A program made the translations under genes and the position numbers. Below, in pieces: positions 19,901 to 38,205 of a DNA stretch of 64,000 nt. The stretch's first letter is position 1. The number at the start of each line of letters is the position of its first letter. Source of the DNA: Hexactinellida sp. DTS-2022 (lineage: Eukaryota; Porifera; Hexactinellida); assembly GCA_028753945.1 (NCBI GenBank), contig JAPNXP010000004.1, forward strand, positions 1,984,001-2,048,000, given 5' to 3'. Under the pieces are notes generated by a model. That model did no database searches. It was not told the DNA's origin and worked only from the letters and a program-made list of their open reading frames with translations.

Positions 19901-20094
19901 ACTTATAACTAATGAATTAATTCGTTGTCGGAAAATTCGTCTCTGGTCGACGGAAGATTCGTTGCAGAAGATTTCTCGGAATCTAATAGCACATCCAAAT
20001 GAAAACATAAGATATATTTTTCTTATACCGATCTGGTGAGCATGAGACACCGTAAATGTATCTCACACCCACCGGGATACTACATGTGGTGGAA

Positions 20095-20144
20095 GTGGTT
20101 TCGTCCTATCACAAGGACTCATCAGGAGGGTAACCCTTGACCAC
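20095..20144 (-). ncRNA. Hammerhead ribozyme, type III topology (HHR-2)
   Basis: Read on the minus strand from 20144. Stem III is GTGGT pairing with ACCAC at the 3' end. The cleavage triplet is GTC. The stem I hairpin is AAGGG-TTA-CCCTC, with an A:C mismatch next to the core. The CTGATGA box follows, then stem II GTCCT/AGGAC with a 6-nt loop, then GAAA. Every invariant core nucleotide is present, including the 15.1 A : 16.1 U and 15.2 C : 16.2 G pairs. It lies in a GC-richer island (about 20040-20290) in AT-rich DNA, inside Phantom element A and antisense to its transposase. Established: this core defines hammerhead self-cleaving RNAs. Inferred: it is expressed and active; the A:C mismatch could weaken it. 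Confidence 0.85.
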
Positions 20145-20297
20145 ACTACAACTGGTCTACACCAGTTCTAGTTACCAGTGAGCCATGCCGTTCTCCTACC
20201 ACAGGTACTAAGCATAACCCACCTACACTAGGACCTCTCTAGTGCACTCCTGTCAGCCCGTCATCACACCACCATTGGGCATTGTCTATCACGTATA

Positions 20298-20398
20298 CAG
20301 TGGAGCCTCCCATAACGGACACTCCAAATAGCGGACAACCTCTAAATAACGGACAACGGTTCCGGTCCCAAGGTGTCCGTTGTTCAGAGGCTCTACTG
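20298..20398. mobile_element. Short Tc1/mariner-type MITE, 101 bp
   Basis: Ends CAGTGGAGCCTCCCATAACG and CAGAGGCTCTACTG, TA on both sides. Nearly the reverse complement of the ends of 13187-13373 with the middle deleted. Confidence 0.85.
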
Positions 20399-20470
20399 TA
20401 ATATAAAGGCTGCCTTTTATATCATTGATTTGCTGTTTATTAAAAGTGTCAAGTGATGTGGTTTTAAGGG

Positions 20471-25354: not shown

Positions 25355-27598
25355 TTAACAAATAATATTTAATGAAATATAGTCATTATAATTTAAACAA
25401 AGTCTAAGAAATTCAAAATTATGGTCCATAGTAGAAATTCTGAGGACTGTAAAGAGACGTTTAATTGTAATACGCAATTCTCTCTTGACATTATCAAAGG
25501 AAATATGATTAGAAAAATCATCAATAAGCAAAATGCAAAATTTTGAACAGGTGAAAAAGAGTTGATTAAACAGCTTTATAAATTTGTTATGGTTAACATC
25601 AAGAAAACACTTGGAAAAAATCGAATTTATAAAATTTTGGTGTTCAATAACAAGTATGTCAGTATCGATCTTTTCAGATTCTATCTTAATAATGAACTTC
25701 CTAAATTCTACCAAAATGATTTGTTGAAAAAAATACTGAGAAATTATAGACATGTAAAAGTTCATTTCACTAATAATGAAAAATGTTTGCATATGCACTT
25801 GATGGAGTCTTTTTAAAAAAAAATTTGCACGATGAAGAATCCATTCTATCCATCTAATATTAAGAAGAAAAGAAAACAAATGTTGATATTGTTGAATAAT
25901 TGGAGGAGTAATCACAATTGATGATAAAGTATCAATAATATAATGAATTTTAATATCACTTAAATTTCCCAAATATTTATTTGTAACAAAGATCTTCTCA
26001 TTATAGTTCATTTTGGGATAGGAATATGAAAGAGATTGATGCAAGTTACTAGTTAAAGAGAGAGAATCTTGAAGACATACAAAATTTTCAAAAGTTTCAA
26101 ATATAGTTTCAGTAAATGTTCGCATTGTTAAAGTATCTCCAAATAGATATAAATTATACAACATTTTCAGTTGTATATTAATGTTAACTACGCTATTAGA
26201 ATGTAAATGAAACGCAAGACAACTAGAAGAAATTTCATAGAAAGGCATTATGATCTTATTCAAAGTCTGTTTAAAAATTAAAAATAAAGGAGATGAAAAC
26301 TGATTTTGAAGTGAATTTTGGAATTTTCTCCAAATAATATCTTGAATTCGAATGCTTTGAAATGATAATAAATATGGAATTTGAACACAATCGCTCTTGT
26401 ATACTGCTTGTACAAGGAATGGTTCATCATAATTTTGTGAAAGAAAGGAATTGTATTTAATAACGGGAAGGTCATCTAAAAAAATAATATTATTTTGAAG
26501 AATAAATTCGTTTTCCATTTCTTTAAAGAATAGAACAATGAAATCAGAGTAGAGAGAATTAATCGGTTTTTCAGTTAATGGAATTCCTATGTAAGCGAGA
26601 GAGCTTATCGCTTTCCCAACAGATAAAATTTTTGATTCTAATTCATGGAAAACTAATGGGATATGAGTCAATCCATTTTTCTCAAACTGTGTACAACAAT
26701 CTCTCCATAGCAAATAAAGTTCATCGCGATTCCTTAAGTACATTATGGGTTGGATATAAAATTCCCTATGCTTATCATGGATAATCCCATCTGTAAACCA
26801 TTGATTGATAAAGTTAAAAATAGGAGCGATTGTAAATAAAAATACAACAATTACAATAGTTGAGCAATTAGGATTATACATCATTTGTAAATCACATTGA
26901 ATAACTCTTTTCCACAAATAATCTAATAAATACAGTACAGCATCTTTTCTAGATAGAGGTGTTTCATTCTTAGGTAACAAAATAGATTCTGAATACATAG
27001 TATAAAAATATGATATTCTCTTCGTCAGAATAATGAGAGAATGAAAAAGAGACAAAATTGAACCATATTCGTGAGTTTGTACACTTTTTTCCATTACAAG
27101 CAATTCAGAATGTACACCATGTATAAAAAAACGAACAGCTGTAGCAAATGCTTGGTATGTAAGTGTAGAATGGTATTCATTTAATGCATCGTAATGAAGA
27201 TTACTTGATCTCTGTTTTAAATTTGAAGATCTTAATGAATTTACTTGATCAATCAAAACAGAAAAACAAAAAGATTTCAGATAAAACATTTGATTTGCTG
27301 TATTACAGATATTTGTTAAAATAGTATAAAATTGTGGAGGTACATTTTCTGTAAGTAGATAACCTGCCTTCCCTAAATTAAAGAATACTAATTTCTCACT
27401 TCCCATGAGCATCCAAATTGTTTCTCTACAAAGCATAAATTCAGAGAATGGATGTAAAAAGCAAGATGAAATCTGGCTCTGTAACAAAATTAAATTAGAA
27501 GAAAGACTATTATTGTTCGAAAAATCATATAACAAATCATCACAGGTTGAACTAGACATATGAGATGCATCTGAAAATGTTTCACTTCTCATGTCATC
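25355..27598 (-). CDS. TUBGCP5: Gamma-tubulin complex component, GCP5-like, large 3' exon
   Basis: One open frame of about 747 codons. It shows the Spc97/Spc98 (GRIP) pattern: CRETIWMLMGSEKLVFFNL near the start, YQAFATAVRFFIHGVHSEL, then NQWFTDGIIHDKHREFYIQ followed by a WRDC block. The GRIP2 part has GDTLTMRTFTETIFE, a YP-x-MNYNEK segment and RWIEWILHRANFF. The order and spacing follow GCP5, which helps build the gamma-tubulin ring complex that nucleates microtubules. The protein is very rich in Phe, Ile, Leu and Asn. The first ATG is at 27592. A good acceptor (pyrimidine-rich tract then TATAG|G) lies just upstream, leaving GAT GAC ATG in frame, so an earlier exon probably supplies the roughly 200 N-terminal residues missing relative to vertebrate GCP5. 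No introns or lesions in this exon. GCP6 is a less likely alternative. Confidence 0.72.
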   Translation of the reverse strand, partial: DDMRSETFSDASHMSSSTCDDLLYDFSNNNSLSSNLILLQSQISSCFLHPFSEFMLCRETIWMLMGSEKLVFFNLGKAGYLLTENVPPQFYTILTNICNTANQMFYLKSFCFSVLIDQVNSLRSSNLKQRSSNLHYDALNEYHSTLTYQAFATAVRFFIHGVHSELLVMEKSVQTHEYGSILSLFHSLIILTKRISYFYTMYSESILLPKNETPLSRKDAVLYLLDYLWKRVIQCDLQMMYNPNCSTIVIVVFLFTIAPIFNFINQWFTDGIIHDKHREFYIQPIMYLRNRDELYLLWRDCCTQFEKNGLTHIPLVFHELESKILSVGKAISSLAYIGIPLTEKPINSLYSDFIVLFFKEMENEFILQNNIIFLDDLPVIKYNSFLSQNYDEPFLVQAVYKSDCVQIPYLLSFQSIRIQDIIWRKFQNSLQNQFSSPLFLIFKQTLNKIIMPFYEISSSCLAFHLHSNSVVNINIQLKMLYNLYLFGDTLTMRTFTETIFETFENFVCLQDSLSLTSNLHQSLSYSYPKMNYNEKIFVTNKYLGNLSDIKIHYIIDTLSSIVITPPIIQQYQHLFSFLLNIRWIEWILHRANFFLKRLHQVHMQTFFIISEMNFYMSIISQYFFQQIILVEFRKFIIKIESEKIDTDILVIEHQNFINSIFSKCFLDVNHNKFIKLFNQLFFTCSKFCILLIDDFSNHISFDNVKRELRITIKRLFTVLRISTMDHNFEFLRLCLNYNDYISLNIIC

Positions 27599-31961: not shown

Positions 31962-33789
31962 CCTACCAGGCTATGTCCAGTATTTCGTACAGGATCCTTT
32001 CATTATTCATATGTATTCTTATAAGCAGCTGGAAATTCTAAAACTAATGAATAGTAAAGATTTTGTCTTGAATTTAGATGCGACTGGTTCTCTTATTTCT
32101 AAACCCCCTTCCTGTTCTAAGAAAATATATTACTATGCCCTTACAATACAACACCCGGAGTTTTCCACTAGTCCCATCCCATTAGCTGAAATGATTAGTA
32201 GCGATCATAGCACGGCTGAGATCTCACACTTCCTGAATAAATGGTGTTTGAGTGTAAAATTATTTAACACAATGGAGTTAAAAATTAAGAAGGTTTTAGT
32301 TGGGCTATGATGCACAGTACATGTTTAGCGTCTAACAAATTTACTATTTTTCATTATCTCCAATATTGTTGGGAATATATAGCTAATAGTGAGAACTGAG
32401 GTGATAATAATATAACAGTCCTCCATCTCTGCTCGGCTCATATCATGCACATAATTAGTTATAATTTAAATAAGAAATTCAAATTAGAAAAGGCTTTAAA
32501 AAGATTAATATTGAATGTATTAGGTCGTATGGTTAATTGTAAACAAATGGATGAAATTAATCAACTTTTCGGGTTAATTTGTTATATTTTGTGTAGTAAG
32601 AAGCAAACTAGTGTTTATTGCACTAAATTAAACAAACAAGAAGAATGTATTGGGCGTAGATTAATGTTAGTTATGATGAATGAATCCAATGAATTCGAGG
32701 ATGAGACTGAAGTTAAAAGTAATGCTGTAACTTACAGAGATAAATCCCCTTTTGGCAGACATTTTGAAATGATTTATCGTAATACCTTAGTCTCAATAAG
32801 CGAATTCGACAATAATTCGCAACTTGATCCTAGTGTATCTTATAACCCCCAGATAGTGGAATTTCTTCTAACGTATTATATGCCATTGTTACCGTTGTGG
32901 AGTGGGATAATTTTATGTACAGTTAATTCGTCAGAGAATGCAACAAACAGTAATGCGATTGTTGAGAATTGGTTCAGAATTGTTAAACACAGCATATTTA
33001 ATTCAGAGACCGGGATACGAACTGCTGATTTCATCAGAACAGTTTATAATAACATAGACGATATGATCGCGGCGTTTAAATTTGCTTTCACTCCACTGGC
33101 TCATAAAGTGTTTAGAAAGGTTAAGAAGAGATTACGCTTGGAGAATGAGGAGGAGTGCAAAGAGGAGTGGTCTAGAAGTAAGAAGAGTAAATTTAGTTAT
33201 ACTAAACCAACTGTTGATAAAGTTAGTACGATATTTAAAAATTTCAAGTCTAAAAGTTTAAGTACTAAAAATAAAAGTTTTAATGTAGAAAGTATAAGTA
33301 AACGTTCAACAGACAGAGAGGAAGCTACTATTTGTGAAGAAAATCCAGTAGATGTTACTACAGTTATTAATGATATAGTGCGTGCAAGTGTAGTTGAAAT
33401 AATTGGTGATTTAGATTTAGTAGAAATGGCTACCATGGAATATAAGTTACCGGCATTCCAACCACTTACATATCGGGGACAGAAGAAGTTGTGTGAAGAT
33501 TTACATTTACAGTTGTCGGGTTCTACAAATTCCATAAGAGATAATATCCCAGGCAATTCTAATTTAAAAGAATATGTTCCTTCGAAGTGTTTGCGAATTC
33601 CTGGAGATGGAAATTGTTTATTCGCATCATTGTCGTACTGGTTGACAGGAAATATTGATGGTTTTAATTTAGTACGGTTGAAAGTTGTAGAGAATATGGT
33701 TGGTAAGCTGAAGGATGCATGCAATAAGTTTATTGCCAATAAATTTCCTAGGAGTGTTATTAACTATCGTAACGTGGCGGACTATGTAG

Positions 33790-35595
33790 CACAGTGGTCC
33801 AGAATGGCGATTATCTTCGAATAGGCATTTTTACACATCCTAGGTACATAGAATGTATTATTTGGGTATGGGTTATCGACCCTAAGAAAGCGATTGGTGT
33901 AATCAGAATTACTGTATGGCTTCAATTTATATAATTATGACGTCATTATATTCAAACAAAATGTCATTTCGTCTCTATAATTGGCTCTAAATGGACAATA
34001 TACACATATAATGTATTATTTGGGTATGGGTTATCAATCCTAAGGAAGAAATTGGTATAATCAGAATTCTTGTATGGCCTCAATATCTGTAATTATGACG
34101 TCATCAAATTTGAAAAAATTGTCTTTCATATCTAAAATGTTATTTATCTTGATAATACAGTACCGAAATATATTAATTAGGTATATGATGACATTTCCTT
34201 GGATATCGATTGGGATTATTTATTATTCTAAAATATTTATAAGTTATTAAACTATCCAATAACTAGACATTATTATCTTTCTGAGCTTCAACAGTTTACA
34301 TAAATTTCCTAGATTTTAGGACTTTCTCTTCAATGAAGATTTTTGTCAGTGTCTATTATTTACCGGAGATAATTGAACATTTAAACCATTCTAGGTCATC
34401 GATAAGTAATTCGCTTTGGGATTGAAAGGGAGTATCATTCCAGCTGTACATATTTACCATTTTAAAGCATTTTACGAAATCGCACTCGCTCTGAAATTAA
34501 GTCCCTAAAACGGTAGCGAAAATGTTCATACTCTGTTTCAGGTAGCTGGAATATCTCCAAAAATTCATTTGTGGCATCATTTACATTTTCATTATGTCCT
34601 TTTAAGAGGTTGTATGCTCCTAGATTATTCATTATCTTGTCTCTTTGATTACTGTACGTGCAAAATTGATAGTTTTATGTGCAAATGTATTGATTTATTA
34701 TGTATTCTATTTATATCCTCATTAAACGAATGCACTTATTATTATATGGTTATCTTATGGCTTTGAAGATTTACAGTACAATTTTGTTTCAATGAATCTT
34801 CACTGGCTTTATTCACGATCTTATTAAACTTCAATTATTAATCATTAATTATTAAAAGCGTATCAAGTTCATGGTTTCAATAATGGAATTGAAACATTTA
34901 AATAATGAATTGAAATATTTCTTCTATGAGTTCGTTTACAAATTAATACAAGCGTAGATAATCTTTCTATTCGTTACTATAATGCGTGTTATTGTGCGAG
35001 TATTTTACACTTTCTATTTAACCAAAATAAAAAAATATTTTTAGAAACTTTTTTTCTTAAAATTATGTGTACCGCACTGCCTTCCAGCTGCTAAACGACC
35101 ATCCGCGCGCCTCCGCGCTACCCTGAACCCTATATGATATCTTTTCAGAATATAATGATCTTTCAAATACAATTAATTTCTTCTAACGCTTTGAAACGCG
35201 TCAAAAGTTATGACACAATAAACTTCTATCGATTAACTAATAATATTTTTCGGTCTTCATGTACTAATATCTACTTACACACATTCTTTAGAGCTCTGAT
35301 GTTGTGTTTATCTTAAAGTAAACTTAAAATTGATTTAGAAACTTTCCTTCCAAATTTAAAATCCTCCAAATACGAATAGACACAAAAATAAGATAGAAAA
35401 ATTACAAAAAATATTTTTATTAAATTCTGTTTGCAGGTCAAGGTTTACCAGAGCATAGTCCAAATATATTAACGTTTGATCATCAAAAAATTACGGATTC
35501 TAGGAATTTCGACTCCGCTGAAATCGATTATAATAGTTTCGAAACGATTTGACGTGGTTAATTTTTCGCCTATTCGAAGATGCTGGACCACTGTG
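33790..35595. mobile_element. Transib-like non-autonomous element, 1806 bp, 5-bp TSD
   Basis: Ends CACAGTGGTCCAG on the left and its exact complement on the right; similarity resumes inside (ATCTTCGAATAGGC on both ends). TGTAG is duplicated at 33785-33789 and 35596-35600. Removing the element and one TSD rejoins the OTU frame exactly (ADYVVNSN...). Transib elements have CAC-starting TIRs and 5-bp TSDs, so that superfamily is the best fit; no transposase is present. A segment of about 95 bp is duplicated inside (33853 and 34009, offset 157), including ATTATGACGTCAT. Confidence 0.8.
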
Positions 35596-36119
35596 TGTAG
35601 TGAACTCTAATATGAAGAGGAATTCTACGTGGGGTACTGATGTGGAGTTATTTGCAACAGCCTTATTATTGCATACGGATATTTGGGTATTTAGTTCAGA
35701 CATGGGTAACAAGTGGATGGTATTCTCAGGTAGAGGGGCTAAACTAATTGATACTTTGGAGTCTCCTCCAGGAAATAATGCAGGCTCTATCTATATTAAT
35801 CATAATGGAGTACATTATGAACCAATATTACGGGTGGATTTAATATCTACGGGCAATTAATGAATTCACTGATTACCTCGTAGTCGTAGATATTAATTAA
35901 TTAAAACTATATACGTAATTAGAAAACCAAAGGACTCCCTTTATTAGTTAATGATTAATTGTCTTATGCGGAATGTTATCCAGGTTTAGAAGTGATCCTA
36001 TTAATTACATCAATTGAAGCAAAGAAGAATAAAATTATTTCGGGCTCTTATAGCGCAAAAATTGCGATTCTCATGTCTACAGCCACCTTCTCTACTTAAA
36101 TAGTAAAGATTTTCAACAA

Positions 36120-36450
36120 CTTTTATGTTGGACAGTGTGACATAGCGGTGTGTGATCCGCGAGAGCTTATGGTCAGTCACTCCCAGGAGGACTAGGCGCT
36201 GCTGGAGCTGTGTAGACAGAGAGAGAAAGCAGGCTTAGGTGTGTCGCGACGATGGAAGAAGTACCATCTGGACGAGGTCGGACACTGCGGTCTTAGTGAG
36301 CGTACCGAGGGTAGAGGACTGGACCGTCCTTCTGATGAGGCCTATGGAGGGCCGAAACCCTAGAGTGGTGGCGACACCACTTGGACCAATTGAGCTGTCA
36401 ATGGTGGCAGCTTGATACAGAAAGGTCCCAAAGCTTCTCATGACAACAGT
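36120..36450 (+). other. GC-richer structured island around HHR-1
   Basis: Composition changes abruptly relative to the AT-rich neighbours. Besides the ribozyme it holds a 7-bp hairpin with a GCGA (GNRA) tetraloop at 36364-36381, three bases after the ribozyme. The long antisense ORF here (36235-36789) is not credible coding. Resembles the island around HHR-2 in composition and content, without obvious sequence identity. Confidence 0.6.
36308..36361 (+). ncRNA. Hammerhead ribozyme, type III topology (HHR-1)
   Basis: Order on the plus strand: stem III strand AGGGT (36308-36312), cleavage triplet GTA, stem I GAGGAC/GTCCTT closed by a 6-nt loop with one G:U pair. Then come CTGATGA (36332-36338), stem II GGCC/GGCC with a 7-nt loop, GAAA (36354-36357), and the stem III partner ACCCT ending at 36361. 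All invariant core positions are present. It lies about 450 bp downstream of the OTU stop codon on the same strand, so it could cut the 3' UTR of the element's transcript. It could equally belong to a retrozyme-like insertion. Confidence 0.92.
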
Positions 36451-36590
36451 TATAAAGTGGTAAGTTATATTCTTAAATGTACATGTGGATGATTTATAAA
36501 TATTTGTGTAAAGATTTATCCTATAGTTCTTTAAAAGAAGGCAAATACAAAAAGGAATTGATCTATCCCAAAGCAGTCGGAATTGATATA

Positions 36591-36782
36591 CAGTAGTCTC
36601 CCAAAACGGACACTCCGAGAAGCGGACAACACATTTAAAACGTACAAACCTCCTGGAACGGAATGAATTTACCATGCATATAATTAATACTTCAGCCGTC
36701 TCCGAGAAGTGGACATCTCCAGAGTCCAAAGAACAAACAAAGGCCATGTCCCCAACGTGTCCGTTATTCGGAGACTCCACGG
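36591..36782. mobile_element. Tc1/mariner-type MITE, 192 bp
   Basis: Ends CAGTAGTCTCCCAAAACGG and complementary CCGTGGAGTCTCCGAATAAC, TA on both sides. Related in sequence to 13187-13373. Confidence 0.75.
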
Positions 36783-37189
36783 TAAACACACATTATTTTA
36801 ATGAGATACCTGGATGCCATTCTCTCTTCTTGGAATTGGATAAGTAAGATCAATCCAAAAAGCAGTGGGAATTGGTACAAGCACACATTGTGGATGCCAT
36901 TCTTCTTGCATTTGTTAATACGTACTAATTATATAATTAACACTACCATTATTACAACCAGAATAATTCATTGTTTACTGATTATGTCTGCATTCCAATC
37001 ATCTGATGTCTTAGTTATATAGTTGCAATTACAATTTGCTATTATTAGTTGAAACTCAATACTACAATAGGAACTAAGAGAAGCGAATGAATTGTGTTAC
37101 CTTACGTATATAGTATAAATGATATCACTAATATTGATGTTATGATGAAATAAAGATAGGCTTAGCTAAAATAATTAGATCGAAATTGG

Positions 37190-38205
37190 AACATTTTGGA
37201 GAAATTAAAAAATTCTGAAAGAAATGACTAGCGACCCTGTTTTTTTTTTCTGGGGATAGAATAATACAGTCAGGTCTGCTTATTGTGAACAAGATTTCGT
37301 CTGCTTATTATTAAGATTTATTATTCTGAACAAGCCCTACGGTCCCAATTTAACAACTTACATAGGGTTTGTATTAAGTTGAGTTCGCTTATTATGAAGT
37401 CTCTCTATTATAAACACAATTTTTGGACCCTTGAATGTTCATAATAAAAGAACCTGACTGTAATATATCAGAGAAAGTACCTGTAAAGTTTGAATCGATT
37501 CTGGTTCAATTTTATCTCGGAGAATTGAGCTCAAAGTTTGAAAAGATAAAACAATAAAAACAGAGATTTACGCCATTTTTAAAGGAGTTATTTATCTGTT
37601 ATAAAGGGAATATTCGAGAATCTAATGGCATTGAGGTAAACCTCCGAGTCTCCTCTAAAGAATGATATCAAAATAAATTAGATTCAGGTTGATATTGGAT
37701 AGGAATGGACACTTTGGACTAACCATACTCAATGGACTTTTCAAAATTCTACTTCCACTCTTTTTCCCAACTTCAAGTTTGAATGTTTATAACTCCAAAA
37801 TTTTTGGGAAATTTTAAATAAAAATTAAATCACATACACCTCCAACTGTCCAAAGTATGATAACAAATTTTCAGAATTGTAAACAAATTTTGAGAATGTG
37901 ATTTTTGATGAGATACCAGTGCGGCTTTGTATGATAAAAATAACCAACTGAAAGTTAAAATTCTTTAAAATAAATAACATCACGGGAAACCTCCGTATCT
38001 CCTCTTTCGAACTACACTAAATTTATTCAAATCTAATAACTAGAAGTGAGTCAAATATCTGACTGAAGTGAGCCTGGTCGAATACTAAGCCAACTTCACA
38101 GTCATATAAATTGTTTGGTAACAATTTTTTTCAAGGTTTTGAGCTTAAAATTCCCTAACTAATACTACTTTAATTCACTTAGATTTCAAATTTCAAACAT
38201 AAATA
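37190..38205 (+). repeat. R1 arm, right
   Basis: Matches the left arm (inverted) from AGAAATTAAAAAATTCTGAA to the TTCCCTAACTA block, with a TA MITE inserted at 37267-37460. The segment 37690-38110 aligns better with the solo copy at 22880-23240, because the left arm carries a hairpin instead. Confidence 0.8.
37267..37460. mobile_element. Tc1/mariner-type MITE, 194 bp, empty site present at 28588
   Basis: Ends CAGTCAGGTCTGCTTATT and complementary CAGTCAGGTTCTTTTATT; TA at 37265-37266 and 37461-37462. The left R1 arm retains the unoccupied site, with a single TA in identical flanks. Confidence 0.93.

Follow-up and report, generated by a model that had tools for sequence, protein, structure and literature searches.

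A type III hammerhead ribozyme in a glass sponge genome and its probable place in a retrozyme-class LTR retrotransposon

Within a 64,000-nucleotide stretch of the genome of a glass sponge (Hexactinellida sp. DTS-2022, contig JAPNXP010000004.1, positions 1,984,001 to 2,048,000), referred to here as the window, a sequence with the features of a type III hammerhead ribozyme (HHR) lies downstream of an OTU transposon gene. This raises the question of whether the motif is a true ribozyme and, if so, whether it belongs to the transposon or to a mobile element of its own. The first-pass annotation of this locus remarked that animal hammerheads are predominantly type I, which agrees with the available portions of the published accounts (PMC7229834; PMC7761336). 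The analysis below makes it very likely that the HHR is part of the solo LTR of a non-autonomous, retrozyme-class LTR retrotransposon in an animal genome.

The HHR occupies positions 36308-36361 of the forward strand. The open helix is stem III, a 5-bp pairing of AGGGU with ACCCU, and the cleavage triplet is GUA with the predicted cut after A36313. Stem I has 6 bp with one G-U pair adjoining the core, the two boxes are CUGAUGA and GAAA, and stem II has 4 bp and a possible U-G pair. On re-reading of the sequence, the position, the core nucleotides and the three stems (5, 6 and 4 bp) described in the annotation all stood. The covariance-model search that it had proposed returned a match to RF00008 at 36306-36363 (33.0 bits, E=0.0032, cmscan), though this is lower than the Rfam gathering score of 48.5 bits. 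A descriptor combining the core with the three helices has a single type III match in the window, at 36308-36361. In 200 dinucleotide shuffles, loose descriptor matches averaged 0.045 with a maximum of one each, and none of the 200 was of comparable strength, in keeping with the low odds of chance that had been claimed. The two-box core alone (CTGATGA...GAAA) provides no evidence, with 2 matches in the window against 1.17 expected. The minimum-energy fold is the hammerhead, with an ordinary energy (z -0.85; 43 of 200 shuffles equal or lower). Thus, the case depends on the motif and its copies. A genome search for copies, also proposed at the outset, covered 112.4 Mb in 18 contigs and located 23 exact occurrences of the 30-nt 3′ part of the HHR, the window included. 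The shuffles rule out a chance motif, and the motif together with its copies identifies a real type III HHR.

The annotation had also placed a hairpin three bases after the ribozyme. The hairpin is present, with 7 bp and a GCGA (GNRA) loop, at 36364-36381 (forward strand); the spacing is two bases. It is conserved in family A, the group of related loci to which the window HHR belongs, being kept at eight of the nine loci examined (the window, L054, L057, L061, L062, L063, L066 and L069). L066 shows compensatory changes, and by the rule used the hairpin is absent from L067.

Both structures reside in a 310-bp segment of the forward strand at 36136-36445, TGTGACATAG...TCTCATGACA, which is identified as the solo LTR of an LTR retrozyme. 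It has TG...CA ends and is bordered by a 4-bp target-site duplication, ACAG, at 36132-36135 and again at 36446-36449. Its GC content is 0.552, compared with 0.344 for the window. A genome search with 36120-36440 gave 44 match rows. Fifteen loci, the window included (L039-L053), carry the LTR together with the transposon surroundings in whole or in part, and the stretch common to them spans 35596-38106 (forward strand). At the next fifteen loci (L054-L068) the shared segment is approximately 36136-36445, which defines the limits of the LTR; three of these loci also hold, elsewhere, an unrelated repeat piece (37263-37467). Four further copies of the transposon are without the LTR (L089, L091, L092 and L093) and run uninterrupted through a single ACAG. 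In a fifth LTR-free copy (L090), the similarity is mainly on the 3′ side. The four empty sites indicate that the HHR unit is an insertion and that the transposon multiplied afterwards.

The transposon itself is represented upstream by a frame at 32445-33824, with the OTU domain (PF02338) found in 3 of 24 rows of relatives. Among the 24 relatives of its protein, the one with a named source is from Oopsacas minuta, a hexactinellid sponge. The genome contains four TGF-beta domains that exceed the cut-off, a domain not known outside animals; a search for the Wnt family gave no match either in the genome or in the controls. The OTU-like frame ends with a stop codon at 35858-35860, and 447 bp separate it from the HHR in sense orientation, close to the approximately 450 bp first estimated. 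From this position the annotation had offered two explanations. Self-cleavage of the transposon 3′ UTR fails as an origin, as four HHR-free copies have an undisturbed site and the 15 carriers represent one insertion; the HHR is thereby ruled out as a native element of the 3′ UTR. The other, a retrozyme-like insertion, is upheld by the LTR ends, the 4-bp duplication, the empty sites and two-LTR relatives with a primer site and purine tract. By this comparison of copies, the HHR is not part of the OTU transposon; the LTR inserted into it, and both then multiplied together. The HHR may nevertheless have a secondary effect on the OTU-transposon transcripts. Its descriptor is still passed by 12 of the 15 transposon-borne copies, with L043, L044 and L053 failing.

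The insertion of family A was surveyed at 23 distinct loci (24 rows, as L068 and L084 are the same; L076 was left out). The ends could be placed at 13 of the 23, and L055, L058, L059, L060, L064, L065, L068 (= L084), L080, L081 and L083 were dropped. Two of the 13 required manual placement (the end of L067) or an altered terminal base (L062, which terminates in CT). A perfect 4-bp duplication is present at 10 of the 13 loci with placeable ends, against 2 matches in 156 cross-locus pairings of flanks, each of them between the window and L057. A strict automatic rule (TG, CA and a 4-bp duplication) is passed at 8 of the 23.

The plan of the whole element is apparent from two-LTR copies, which are short and non-coding and consist of an LTR with its HHR, a primer site, a purine tract and a second LTR with its HHR. 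The complete element L069 has two 302-bp LTRs that are 99.3% identical, with 73 bp between them and CTAT on each side. A stem III mismatch in its 5′ HHR may prevent L069 from cutting at both ends. Few two-LTR copies are complete (L069, L070 and L072), and others are partial or rearranged (L071, L096 and L098). The flanks of L070 read CTTA/CTTC, and L101 has no duplication. By eye, a purine tract lies 5′ of the 3′ LTR in L069, L070, L071, L072, L096 and L098. The inner stretch is non-coding in both L069 (73 bp) and L072 (161 bp); a search of the genome outside L072 yielded no other full-length copy of the latter.

The ribozyme is not confined to family A, in which the triplet is GUA, the LTR is approximately 300 bp and the primer site matches tRNA-Gly. 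Family B has a GUC triplet; its LTR measures 325 bp in L035-L038, where every copy has a separate 4-bp duplication, and 272 bp in L011. Family C also has a GUC triplet, with an LTR of the form TGTAGTATC...TTACTACA and a tRNA-Gly primer site. Families B and C have mainly the HHR in common. TG...CA ends around a type III HHR are likewise seen in L035-L038, L011 and L069. A genome scan with RF00008 gave 68 scored hits from 12,319 first-look candidates, of which 64 reach the gathering score, with a best score of 64.3 bits. The pattern CCTCCTGATGAG N8-20 CGAAAC has 301 genomic matches (151 and 150 by strand), and the reversed control has none. Two HHR patterns searched against viral_contigs gave no match.

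The helices of the GUC-type ribozymes also covary. The alignment contains 35 distinct HHRs (two of the 37 were excluded on length), with standard pairing in 98.5% of pair cells and changes at both partners in 5 of 15 pairs, amounting to 27 cells. Shifting the partners by 1-3 columns leaves 0-2 such pairs, and five are reached in 1 of 500 shuffles. As the alignment rows were pre-selected for the core and the ends of stem I, this covariation is informative in stems II and III only. When 30 GUC-type HHR loci were scanned with a strict pattern, an LTR-like frame with a duplication appeared in 9 rows (8 loci), compared with 6 of 300 random sites; the pattern is absent at 21 of the 30, and the frames of L010 and L025 may be chance. 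The genome contains many copies of ribozyme-in-LTR elements, a design described from plants.

The primer sites of families A and C match the genome’s own tRNA-Gly(GCC) at its 3′ end. The site following the 5′ LTR of L069 reads TTTGGTGCATTGGCCG, and the corresponding site of L071 reads TGGTGCATTGGCCGGGAA. The 15-mer TGCATTGGCCGGGAA occurs at 8 genomic places, one being a tRNA-Gly gene (anticodon GCC) and the other seven being sites in HHR elements (L071, L096, L098 twice, L100 twice and L101), with a damaged HHR at the second L100 copy. A 13-nt core of the site occurs at 13 genomic places, nine of which are HHR elements, L097 counting among them only with a damaged HHR. The four places without an HHR element are L099, L105, L106 and L107. 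L099 and L105 represent another repeat, found at two places with the 13-nt tRNA-Gly core and without an HHR.

The window contains a second type III HHR, absent from the first-pass annotation, at 20093-20146 of the reverse strand. It has a GUC triplet and scores 53.0 bits against RF00008, above the gathering score. The first pair of its stem I is an A.C mismatch, with which it failed the strict descriptor, and its fold energy is ordinary (z +0.50). A scan for an LTR frame recognised neither LTR ends nor a duplication around it. The second HHR looks weakened and probably sits in a decayed solo LTR. Elsewhere in the window, at 20318-20400 and approximately 36590-36790, motifs similar to ACGGACACTCC recur together with inverted counterparts and, by eye, resemble short DNA transposons. 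An uninterrupted frame on the reverse strand at 25355-27598 encodes a gamma-tubulin complex component (PF04130, PF17681) and is apparently a host gene.

Other origins for the window HHR were weighed against the LTR retrotransposon. It could be a functional part of the OTU transposon that processes the 3′ end of the mRNA, as its sense orientation 447 bp past the stop codon and the survival of the descriptor in 12 of the 15 transposon-borne copies might suggest. This is very improbable: the four transposon copies with an undisturbed empty site refute it as an origin, the LTR is present without this transposon at 22 or more further distinct loci of family A, and the HHR unit has LTR ends and duplications of its own. 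A similarly low probability is given to a TRIM, an ordinary miniature LTR element that would carry the HHR as a passenger with no role of its own. The LTR anatomy alone can account for mobility, but a passenger is at odds with the covariation of the helices (27 cells changed at both partners, in 5 of 15 pairs) and with families B and C having mainly the HHR in common.

An even smaller chance is attached to the window element being an animal non-LTR retrozyme of the published type, in which a LINE or Penelope-like element mobilises tandem repeats. In its favour are the animal host and the 375-nt unit, which falls within the 170-400 nt given in the available part of PMC7229834. However, the HHR is type III, not type I, and the 4-bp duplications, TG...CA ends, primer site and purine tract are present; this candidate was rejected on the ribozyme type and the LTR features. 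The least probable explanation is that the copies are integrated viroid-like or satellite RNAs. These units are small, structured and HHR-bearing, and some GUC-type HHRs have a stem II near the RF00008 consensus. Against this stand the LTR ends, the duplications and the tRNA primer site. In addition, the descriptor match in L069 and L070 is confined to a single strand, and the opposite-strand HHRs of L071-L073 are inverted copies. The viroid-like integrant was rejected on the same grounds.

For the LTR retrotransposon, the anatomy, insertion, duplications, tRNA match and covariation are legible in the sequence itself, and a cycle can be proposed around them. A two-LTR copy would be transcribed, and the HHRs in both LTRs would cleave the transcript to give an RNA of approximately 375 nt (family A, L069) or 486 nt (family B, L072). 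A host RNA ligase would then close the cleaved RNA into a circle. The predicted circles are more stable than 100 shuffles (z -3.37 for L069 and -7.41 for L072). In families A and C, tRNA-Gly would prime the circle, the enzyme of a Ty3-type element would reverse-transcribe it and the integrase of that element would insert the product. Copying of a circle could yield one or several LTR units, so that solo LTRs may be direct products or remnants of recombination. With a single HHR and lacking a primer site, the window copy cannot form a circle itself; at most, it would cut read-through transcripts.

Candidates for the helper were sought among the Ty3-type elements. The genome contains Ty3-type RT/RNase H domains, with 150 scored hits from 343 candidates. 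Among the 13 genomic places of the 13-nt core, no helper element with a tRNA-Gly primer site was found. One Ty3-type element (L110 968-1180, L111 1-101) combines TGT...ACA ends with a primer site of which 11 bases are complementary to the LTR of this element. A GTAG duplication is tentatively assigned to it, and the start of its 5′ LTR is set by one GTAGTG match, attainable by chance. As this primer site is complementary to the LTR of the same element, self-priming Ty3-type elements probably exist in the glass sponge genome. In a second Ty3 element, represented by its end pieces L108 and L109, the LTRs were not visible. At L096 and C1:9874000-9874257, a Ty3-type RT/RNase H domain directly adjoins a family C HHR element.

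Family B may be primed in another manner. In L072 the LTR (724-1048, with its end inferred from L035-L038) is followed by a hairpin, with no tRNA site. The 5′ arm of the hairpin includes the last bases of the LTR, and its fold has a z of -6.22. Such hairpins are also found in L073, L012, L003 and L102, with differing arm sequences that are each complementary to the end of their own LTR. Palindromes are centred on the hairpin in L072, L073, L102 and L003, with flanking duplications of CTAT (L072), CGTA (L073) and ATAC (L102). At L071, L072, L073, L101, L102, L003 and L088, the HHR elements are palindromic and contain at least two inverted LTRs; 4-bp duplications surround several of them, as would be expected had each integrated as a single unit.

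The family B hairpin and the palindromic integrants suggest self-priming. It is possible, though somewhat doubtful, that in family B a hairpin across the 3′ end of the LTR replaced the tRNA site and supports a self-primed, tRNA-free retrotransposition of ribozyme-made RNA. The hairpin’s own 3′ arm would prime minus-strand synthesis. Where the loop is kept, snap-back synthesis would lead to products of LTR, hairpin and inverted LTR, which would be integrated with 4-bp duplications. For family C, the fold of the primer-site stretch in L101 is not unusually stable (z +0.90), which restricts the hairpin idea to family B. Two palindromic loci, L071 (family A, with CAGG duplicated) and L101 (family C, lacking a duplication), have no such junction hairpin; another route to palindromes therefore exists. 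The retrotransposon Tf1 self-primes with the 5′ end of its own mRNA. Both systems have a self-complementary primer region, which in family B takes the form of a local hairpin at the edge of the LTR.

In this animal genome, type III HHR cores number in the hundreds and lie in LTR elements wherever the ends can be placed. This runs against the published picture of type I, non-LTR elements in animals. It bears on whether LTR retrozymes are ancient, have spread between kingdoms or had several origins, as well as on the link to viroids that has been proposed for them. With their short units and the hairpin family, the sponge elements also open the priming step of circle-based retrotransposition to testing. 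A literature search, which missed most subscription journals and preprints, found no description of LTR retrozymes in animals. To our knowledge, TRIMs carry no ribozyme. The sponge elements resemble the TRIMs named in PMC4918200, in the part available, in their small, non-coding LTR anatomy.

The animal retrozymes of Cervera and de la Peña (2020) are described, in the accessible portions of the reports, as having type I HHRs and no LTR features (PMC7229834; PMC7761336). The sponge elements resemble them as small HHR units in animals with an inferred circular RNA, and differ in combining a type III HHR with an LTR (PMC7229834). Type III HHRs have been described in flies and in the delta-like RNAs of toad and termite, with long helices I and II and a loop pseudoknot (PMC7936874). 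They share the type III topology with the sponge elements and likewise occur in animals or in RNA agents of animals; the difference lies in those long helices and the pseudoknot, and the available text of that report describes no LTR setting. An atypical type III HHR occurs in mammalian Clec2 genes (PMC6155905), and unpublished type III elements in insects are hinted at in a review (PMC7761336), both as given in the portions available.

The closest comparison is with the LTR retrozymes of plants, for which the available portions of Cervera, Urbina and de la Peña (2016) describe type III HHRs in LTRs of 300-400 bp, 4-bp duplications, a tRNA-Met primer site, a purine tract, many solo LTRs, an inner stretch of 300-600 bp and a unit of approximately 700 nt (PMC4918200). 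For animal repeats, the same portions describe no such sites, except full tRNA-Gln in schistosome repeats. The sponge elements share with those of plants a type III HHR in LTRs of approximately 300 bp, the 4-bp duplications, a primer site, a purine tract, the absence of coding, many solo LTRs and the presence of Ty3 elements in the genome. They differ in the animal host, in the inner stretch (73-161 bp) and in the unit (375-486 nt). The tRNA-Met primer site of plants was not found; tRNA-Gly(GCC) takes its place in families A and C and a hairpin in family B, the one family without a tRNA site. When the primer site is counted as defining and the kind of tRNA as a difference, the sponge element departs from the plant elements in the tRNA-Met site and the length of the inner stretch and is, by its anatomy, an LTR retrozyme.
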